From a virus, in IMG/VR virus record IMGVR_UViG_3300045950_000294, positions 1 to 31,406 of that record: a DNA stretch of 31,406 nucleotides; one strand, given 5' to 3'. Below the pieces are notes generated by a model. It made no database searches, had not been told where the DNA came from, and worked only from the letters and a program-made list of their open reading frames with translations. This document shows, in pieces, positions 4,380 through 4,988 of the stretch (position 1 is its first letter; each line of letters starts with the position of its first letter). A program made the translations under genes and the position numbers.

Positions 4380-4411
4380 AGTATATTACGAGCCTACTCG
4401 TTAGTAGTTCC
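4380..4411 (-). promoter_or_regulatory. Promoter-operator A (GAACT-N20-TATACT with ACGAG palindrome)
   Basis: On the minus strand GGAACT (4406-4411), then exactly 20 bases after GAACT, then TATACT (4380-4385). The spacer contains the palindrome ACGAG-N4-CTCGT (4388-4401). The same arrangement recurs on the plus strand at 4687-4718. It drives the 60-aa gene at 4355. A palindrome between two promoter elements is typical of a repressor or activator site; the regulator is unknown. Confidence 0.6.
4385..4401 (+). repeat. 17-bp direct repeat, copy 1
   Basis: ATTACGAGCCTACTCGT, identical to the copy at 4695-4711 about 310 bp away. The core ACGAG-CCTA-CTCGT is a palindrome, so each copy can act in either direction. 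Confidence 0.85.
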
Positions 4412-4455: not shown

Positions 4456-4680
4456 ATGGAAAAGCGCCCGAAGCACCCAGCAGTTGTGGCCGGGATGGCG
4501 AGACGCGTAGAGGTCGTAGTGTGGGCCTGCAAGTGCGCCAAATGCGGGTATTCGTGGACTACCGAGGCGGACCAGCCGCCAGACCACTGCGCCGCGTGTC
4601 GAAATGGCGACTGGTGGATCAAGCGCCCCCGCGGCCGTCCGCCCAAGGGGCCGGCCGCGGGAGCGCCAGAAAAAAGATAG
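4456..4680 (+). CDS. Zinc-ribbon / AT-hook DNA-binding protein
   Basis: 74-aa probable DNA-binding regulator. A four-cysteine ribbon is formed by C27-x-x-C30 and C45-x-x-C48, with an extra Cys at 25. It is followed by an AT-hook, KRPRGRPPKG (residues 56-65), whose GRP core binds the minor groove of AT-rich DNA. A TTG-initiated 86-aa form from 4420 is possible but would start inside the predicted -35; neither start has a Shine-Dalgarno. It is flanked by the two copies of the ACGAG palindrome and precedes the tmRNA-like RNA, so it is a plausible regulator of this block. Metal and DNA binding are inferred from motifs. Confidence 0.75.
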   Translation: MEKRPKHPAVVAGMARRVEVVVWACKCAKCGYSWTTEADQPPDHCAACRNGDWWIKRPRGRPPKGPAAGAPEKR

Positions 4681-4686
4681 GCGTAC

Positions 4687-4718
4687 CGAACTTAATTACG
4701 AGCCTACTCGTCTATACT
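4687..4718 (+). promoter_or_regulatory. Promoter-operator B driving the tmRNA-like RNA
   Basis: CGAACT (4687-4692), then exactly 20 bases, then TATACT (4713-4718) followed by G. The spacer holds ACGAG-CCTA-CTCGT (4698-4711). It is the plus-strand counterpart of promoter-operator A with the same element spacing. The predicted start near 4725 is about nine bases before the RNA 5' end at 4734, leaving a short leader for RNase P to remove. Confidence 0.6.
4695..4711 (+). repeat. 17-bp direct repeat, copy 2
   Basis: Identical to 4385-4401 (ATTACGAGCCTACTCGT). It lies directly upstream of the -10 element of the tmRNA-like RNA promoter. Confidence 0.85.
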
Positions 4719-4733
4719 GGCATGGTAAACGGT

Positions 4734-4804
4734 GGGGCCGATCTGGTGATGGACGCGGGTGGTAGACCCTGCGGACGCGAGTTCGATTCTCGCCGGCTCC
4801 ACCA
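4734..4804 (+). ncRNA. tmRNA-like tRNA-like domain without an mRNA-like domain
   Basis: 71-nt RNA that folds like the tRNA-like domain of tmRNA. The acceptor stem GGGGCCG (4734-4740) pairs with CGGCTCC (4794-4800), including a G3-U70 wobble, followed by A73 and an encoded CCA. The T-arm is GCGAG / TTCGATT / CTCGC (4777-4793). The 5' end resembles tmRNA (GGGGCYGA, then CTGG and GACG, with A8-U9 instead of U8). The 3' part CGGACGCG-x-GTTC also matches tmRNA. In place of the reading frame and pseudoknots there is one 6-bp hairpin (4754-4759 with 4768-4773, 8-nt loop). No D-stem or standard 7-nt anticodon loop exists, so it is not an ordinary tRNA. G3-U70 and A73 are the alanyl-tRNA synthetase identity elements. 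It could also be a relic of integration into a host tmRNA gene. Confidence 0.72.
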
Positions 4805-4809
4805 GGAGG
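4804..4809 (+). promoter_or_regulatory. Ribosome-binding site overlapping the CCA end
   Basis: AGGAGG, a perfect Shine-Dalgarno whose first A is the terminal A of the RNA's CCA, five bases before the ATG at 4815. Processing of the RNA 3' end would cut at or next to this site. Confidence 0.7.
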
Positions 4810-4814
4810 ACGCC

Positions 4815-4988
4815 ATGTCGAACGATCCGCGACAATCAGGCCACGAGACGGAAAGTGAGCCTGAGCTTTGCCCATGCTGGGGCGACGGGGAGGACCGCTG
4901 CGTCCTGCCCTATGGGCACCGCGGCGAGTGCCGCGACGCATCCGGCTCGTCTACGCTCGCGCTCGCGGCCGCTATCCTCGGCCGCTGA
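4815..4988 (+). CDS. Small cysteine/histidine zinc-binding protein (57 aa)
   Basis: The start is fixed by a perfect AGGAGG five bases upstream. C19, C21, C29, H35 and C39 sit in the pattern CPCW...RCVLPYGHRGEC, a compact metal-binding motif of the C-x-LP-x-GH-x-G type seen in small phage proteins. The N-terminus is acidic and the C-terminus is alanine/leucine-rich. The gene is co-transcribed with, and immediately downstream of, the tmRNA-like RNA, so it may be expressed only from unprocessed transcript or may work with the RNA. No specific function was recognised. Confidence 0.68.
   Translation: MSNDPRQSGHETESEPELCPCWGDGEDRCVLPYGHRGECRDASGSSTLALAAAILGR

Follow-up and report, generated by a model that had tools for sequence, protein, structure and literature searches.

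Forms of transfer-messenger RNA (tmRNA) reduced to the tRNA-like domain (TLD) have so far been on record from one phage, two plastids and some mitochondria. The frame-less organellar forms were already known (PMC11915505): mitochondrial tmRNA of this type (RF02544) and the ~65-bp tmRNAs of Mallomonadaceae plastids are TLD-like and have no tag frame, as is the case for the phage RNAs described here, which, unlike the organellar ones, would act beside the tmRNA of a host. The single reported phage case is the ‘TLD only’ tmRNA of mycobacteriophage DS6A (tmID 11587; PMC4131195, PMC11915505), which we liken to our RNAs by its description only. According to the section of PMC4131195 that cites Mao et al. 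2009, a molecule like the DS6A RNA strongly inhibits host tmRNA in chargeable and unchargeable form alike. Here we describe a 71-nt element at positions 4734-4804 of the IMG/VR virus record IMGVR_UViG_3300045950_000294, together with the family of compact TLDs to which it belongs; the whole stretch analysed, 31,406 nt of phage DNA, is referred to as the window. A first, sequence-only reading of this DNA had proposed a stand-alone TLD without an mRNA-like domain, and this is borne out by covariance models, homologues and covariation. The window copy by itself adds a further TLD-only phage RNA to the type known from DS6A. Compared with that single case, the family has about 90 members, mostly from phages; it shows covariation, divides into two size classes and has an apical motif.

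A stand-alone tRNA-like domain in the window

The 7-bp acceptor stem with G3-U70, A73, CCA, T arm and single 6-bp hairpin that the sequence-only reading had described were confirmed at their exact coordinates. The parts of the element are as follows, with R1 denoting the family covariance model introduced below.

4734-4804, plus strand: stand-alone tmRNA TLD of 71 nt, scoring 59.4 bits with RF00023 and 61.3 bits with R1
4734-4740, plus strand: acceptor 5' strand GGGGCCG, which pairs with 4794-4800, G3-U70 included
4741-4754, plus strand: D-loop-like segment ATCTGGTGATGGAC, which the alignment places on the conserved 5' segment of tmRNA and which lacks the UUC of the family
4754-4773, plus strand: short capped hairpin of 6 bp with an 8-nt loop, replacing P2 and the mRNA-like domain
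4777-4793, plus strand: T arm GCGAG-TTCGATT-CTCGC, with a 5-bp stem and a TTCGATT loop
4794-4804, plus strand: acceptor 3' strand CGGCTCC (4794-4800), discriminator A73 (4801) and encoded CCA (4802-4804)

In the hairpin, which stands at the site of the mRNA-like domain, 4754-4759 pairs with 4768-4773 with one G-U pair. Upstream of it, GG and GAC are present as in the D-loop region of tmRNA, where they are conserved. Comparison with Rfam, as the first reading had proposed, separates tmRNA from tRNA. The tmRNA model RF00023 matches at 59.4 bits (E 4.8e-21; gathering score 47), the sole tmRNA match over the cut-off in the whole record, and its alignment spans model positions 1-374, of which 312 are deleted, so that the 5' and 3' halves directly adjoin each other. 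An ordinary tRNA with cloverleaf, D stem and anticodon arm was rejected, as RF00005 reaches only 20.2 bits against a cut-off of 29 and ARAGORN calls nothing. With standard tmRNA the element has in common the acceptor, the D-loop-like segment, the T arm, G3-U70 and CCA, and so, with A73, a tRNA-like domain of alanine identity; in contrast to standard tmRNA it has no mRNA-like domain with resume codon, tag frame and pseudoknots, and P2 is reduced to the short capped hairpin. The sequence features on which alanine charging and binding by SmpB depend are in place.

Permuted two-piece tmRNAs (RF04321/RF01849-51), which also occur in phages, build a TLD from the same two halves, but these come in reverse order, with a segment between them and a coding piece besides. 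The window halves are contiguous and in normal order within one 71-nt unit, RF04321 makes no call, and this identity was likewise discarded. Several BLAST matches are permuted full tmRNAs, namely those in Axy11, Tunturi_5, PHB04, CcrPW, JWDelta, BUCT628, QDWS595, SM1 and RpAliso, whose deposited genomes have no annotated tmRNA feature (L003, L004, L005, L008, L011, L258, L259, L330, L335), and that in S-CAM1. Folding of the lone window sequence beats shuffles only weakly (z -2.1), and the case for the window TLD therefore rests on homology.

A family of compact tRNA-like domains

The same compact form, for which the first reading had suggested a search in phage and metagenome data, is widespread. 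Scanning IMG/VR for an acceptor stem that closes on a compact core gave at least 119 stretches; about 100 distinct matches were inspected, and at least about 90 of the pattern-scan matches are distinct compact TLDs of 64-85 nt. The earliest pattern, with an exact GATCTGG, had zero matches. The 3' ends of full tmRNAs that fit the scan pattern (an 85-87-nt class from Xanthomonadaceae, Clostridia and Acidimicrobiia) were removed by motif and model score, and tRNAs were taken out as well. The members are of two sizes. In the short class (64-69 nt) P2 has ~5 bp and a small loop; in the long class (74-85 nt) it has 6-7 bp and is topped by an apical AAR-CC...GG-A element. The window copy, with its 71 nt and plain 8-nt loop, is nearest to the short class. 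The architecture of the natural 66-nt class is nearly identical to that of the man-made Thermus thermophilus TLD construct used in SmpB crystal structures (5' 25 nt and 3' 34 nt joined via UUCG; PMC3929946).

Model R1 was built from 60 members, with the window excluded. It scores the window TLD at 61.3 bits (E 6.6e-11 in 870 kb), while full-length or permuted tmRNA 3' halves and tRNAs reach at most 44.4 bits; such a score against a model made from the copies of other phages places the window TLD far beyond chance. The window copy has the features by which the R1 family is defined: a 7-bp acceptor with G3-U70, GAC and GGAC on either side of a short P2 hairpin, a 5-bp T stem and no mRNA-like domain. 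Its D-loop reads GATGGAC where the family usually has UUCGAC. Directly before P2, TTCGAC is found in 57 of 87 members, most others differing only in the letters before GAC, and the window has ATGGAC. A few divergent elements (L214, L255 and L017) score between the two groups on R1. Those at L255 5501-5571 (minus strand, 45.2 bits) and L214 4928-4997 (49.7 bits) are 70-71 nt long, with a complete acceptor and T arm and a poor D-loop segment, and are possibly drifting members.

An alignment of 89 distinct members (84 IMG/VR contigs, four bacterial genome contigs and the window) has 94.6% of its cells paired and 506 double-sided changes. The covariation score is 0.726 compared with 0.161 in shuffles, and every slid control is at ~0.1 or lower. 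P2 covaries across the family as well. The alignment was fitted to the model, and model-free counts from fixed anchors agree with it. The identity of the compact TLD as an RNA, and its conservation, are well supported by these comparisons.

Above P2, the apical element AAR-CC-loop-GG-A is conserved in the long class (e.g. L121, L129 and L060; A4 columns 26-42). Stop triplets occur in 43 of 68 long hairpins compared with 13 in shuffles; an ‘instant stop codon’ in the apical loop was nevertheless rejected. The U belongs to the pair that closes P2, where it changes together with its partner and is replaced by C in Streptomyces phage LuckySocke, which makes this a motif and not a codon.

Conservation of the alanine identity pair

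G3-U70 and A73 are the recognition keys of alanyl-tRNA synthetase (AlaRS; PMC3968760), and the sequence-only reading had made its interpretation depend on conservation of the pair. The acceptor-stem pattern used on IMG/VR prescribed GGGG and some of the 3' strand, with either C or U allowed at position 70. This position is U in 89/89 members, four of which, from the bacterial genome scan, had U70 fixed by their own pattern. In a second scan the acceptor stem was left free, and the requirements were limited to the D-loop, GGAC, T-loop and ACCA; 61 of its 63 distinct matches have a 7-bp acceptor, and G3-U70 is kept in every one of the 61, including four with other acceptor sequences. Among the 61 are the acceptors GGGTGGC/GCCATCC and GGGCCTG/CAGGTCC. 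In Streptomyces phages the pair stays while pairs 4:69 and 5:68 change. Because G3-U70 is fixed and forms, with A73, the key for AlaRS, alanine charging of the compact TLDs appears to be under selection.

This bears on a role in which the RNA, charged or uncharged, would only titrate SmpB (or EF-Tu or AlaRS) and never act on the ribosome. Inhibition irrespective of chargeability, as cited in that section of PMC4131195, would agree with such titration, as would the near match of the natural 66-nt class to the UUCG-capped crystal design. Titration of SmpB, however, would not preserve G3-U70 in every copy unless AlaRS were the target, and we consider this role quite unlikely. Between a decoy, SmpB titration and minimal rescue, the sequence itself speaks only in so far as the fixed G3-U70 argues that charging matters.

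Carriers of the compact domains

We surveyed 50 carrier records, the window and 49 others of 17-194 kb. Each has exactly one tmRNA match over the cut-off, which is the compact form, and no full tmRNA. SmpB was found in 0/50. Both absences are only suggestive, as many of the records are fragments. No conserved partner protein was found beside the TLDs, the neighbours being varied phage genes. A tRNA gene lies within 1.5 kb of the TLD in 22 of 89 members, always on the same strand and often 0-15 nt away, and this closeness suggests that the TLD is processed in the manner of a tRNA; the other 67 have no tRNA neighbour.

Four cultured Streptomyces phages carry the TLD 3' of tRNA-Val inside a tRNA array, and phage Alone3 has a more degenerate copy, likewise downstream of tRNA-Val in a tRNA array. 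None of these is annotated as RNA. The apical motif GAAAGCCGCACGCGGAA is nearly invariant among the Streptomyces phages, and P2 varies with compensation. Compact TLDs are also held by cyanobacterial genomes and one Nostoc plasmid (L143, L191, L232, L332 and four more genomes). Three of the four cyanobacterial copies listed below sit in large tRNA arrays, one of these on Nostoc plasmid pNSMS105. Carriers numbered five in a sample of 386 cyanobacteria and one in a sample of 296 Acidimicrobiia.

L327 1491-1571: compact TLD of LuckySocke, tRNA array, CCA not encoded
L328 1491-1571: compact TLD of BRock, tRNA array, CCA not encoded
L333 991-1071: compact TLD of pSt2308, tRNA array, CCA not encoded
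L334 991-1071: compact TLD of GiJojo, tRNA array, CCA not encoded
L191 5341-5423: cyanobacterial TLD beside tRNA genes
L232 7458-7540: cyanobacterial TLD beside tRNA genes
L332 1994-2077: cyanobacterial TLD beside tRNA genes
L143 2383-2466: cyanobacterial TLD beside tRNA genes

The copies within phage tRNA arrays could mean that the TLD serves as a spare or substitute target when a host defence or toxin attacks alanyl-tRNA or the ends of tRNAs, a role that has been proposed for some phage tRNAs. The TLD has no anticodon, the usual target, and the 67 of 89 copies that stand alone also speak against this explanation, which seems improbable.

A site among tRNA genes would equally fit a role in supporting translation as a minimal but productive rescue RNA, in which alanylated TLD and SmpB would take over the nascent chain, add alanine once or repeatedly without a template and leave release to other factors, freeing ribosomes without a degradation tag. 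SmpB and a TLD fragment support mRNA-free polyalanine synthesis in vitro (Shimizu and Ueda 2006, cited within PMC3929946), frame-less mitochondrial tmRNAs persist alongside imported SmpB (PMC11915505), and the charging identity is strictly kept. On the other hand, no release step is known for peptidyl-TLD, and the molecule cited in that section of PMC4131195 inhibits in E. coli; we regard productive rescue as possible but unlikely. A more specific form, in our judgement unlikely, is that host SmpB and EF-Tu would work with the compact TLD to add alanine without a template to stalled chains and re-route rescue away from the host degradation tag; in the long class, this step would be tuned by the apical motif. 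If true, this would be an RNA-based counterpart of alanine tailing.

Local setting in the window phage

Genes for terminase, portal, prohead protease and tape measure lie on the minus strand of the 31.4-kb window, which is a phage record. The TLD occupies the gap between two small open reading frames (ORFs) on the plus strand, for neither of which a family match was found.

1-1275: integrase, PHROG integrase family
4386-4401, plus strand: palindromic operator-like element TTACGAGCCTACTCGT, first copy of an exact 16-bp repeat
4456-4680, plus strand: upstream small ORF of 74 aa with CxxC pairs and an RGRPPKG tail
4696-4711, plus strand: second copy of the palindromic element, 22 nt upstream of the TLD and followed by TATACT at 4713-4718
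4815-4988, plus strand: downstream small ORF of 57 aa with a ribosome-binding-like site

The AGGAGG of the 57-aa ORF (4804-4809) abuts the CCA end of the TLD. Only two exact copies of the palindromic element occur in the window, and among 100 shuffles a single one yielded two matches when up to three mismatches were allowed. The pair is likely the operator of a phage regulator, and may be an operator or promoter element shared by the two adjacent plus-strand units. A promoter is only suggested by the second copy with TATACT, and no sigma-70 promoter came up to the scan threshold. Two further RNA matches lie on the minus strand: an int-alpA RNA (RF02996) at 16665-16597 (42.1 bits, cut-off 35.8), which is among tail and head genes and not beside an integrase, and a CRISPR-DR29-like hairpin at 21467-21433 (27.6 bits, under the cut-off of 39), which is probably due to chance.

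The first reading had offered, as an alternative, a relic of an integration site in the host tmRNA gene (ssrA). Such genes are common integration sites, and attachment sites of K-cluster mycobacteriophages did match our searches, with the 3' piece only. In the compact TLDs, by contrast, both halves are present and pair, and the family has strong covariation of its own. The window integrase, which we read as a serine recombinase of the large PHROG integrase family, is more than 3 kb from the TLD. The four carrier genomes checked (three cyanobacteria and one Acidimicrobiaceae metagenome-assembled genome) have a full tmRNA at a separate site, which differs from the TLD in its arms, the T arm among them, and lacks an encoded CCA. 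An attachment-site or recombination relic is thus highly improbable; of the first interpretation, the stand-alone TLD has stood and the relic has not.

Probable competition with host tmRNA

We consider a charged competitor of host tmRNA the most likely role of the compact TLD. The phage RNA would be trimmed in the manner of a tRNA and charged with alanine by the host AlaRS, and host SmpB and EF-Tu would bind the charged TLD, which would then replace host tmRNA in entering ribosomes that have stalled on truncated mRNA. Without a resume codon or tag frame it could not complete trans-translation, and tagging of stalled chains would therefore drop during infection or lysogeny. The observations behind this role are the fold, the covariation, the invariant alanine pair, the missing mRNA-like domain, and the lack of SmpB and full tmRNA in the carriers; we place it first because a DS6A-like molecule inhibits tmRNA and because SmpB with a TLD fragment makes polyalanine. 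That an alanylated TLD displaces host tmRNA with the help of host SmpB and EF-Tu has, on this reasoning, a somewhat better than even chance of being right. The fixed G3-U70 suggests that the TLD does more than soak up SmpB and that it competes on the ribosome in its charged form. The idea of a phage decoy is plausible and not new, having been published in principle for DS6A in the section of PMC4131195 concerned.

Several points weigh against a charged competitor. As the published inhibition is independent of charging, titration of SmpB alone leaves the fixed G3-U70 unexplained, and the pair may be kept for some positive function, of which alanine addition without a template is one possibility. 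A plain decoy would have no need of the apical motif found in the long class. The window copy itself departs from the family in its D-loop, without the UUC, and tail-protein and small-ORF queries found no close kin of the window phage, with portal relatives only ~30% identical.

Significance of the family

In the literature covered, which included few subscription papers, we found no description of a wide phage family, its two classes, apical motif, tRNA-array copies or G3-U70 conservation. Of the current tools, ARAGORN misses the compact TLDs, and Rfam would label them plain ‘tmRNA’. What is added here is a covariance-supported RNA family that is found both in many unrelated phages and within tRNA arrays of cyanobacteria. 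Its alanine pair is strictly conserved, and unannotated copies occur in cultured Streptomyces phages on the laboratory host S. lividans. The phage TLD family probably competes with the ribosome-rescue RNA of the host, and phage interference with trans-translation, or ribosome rescue without a reading frame, becomes directly testable.
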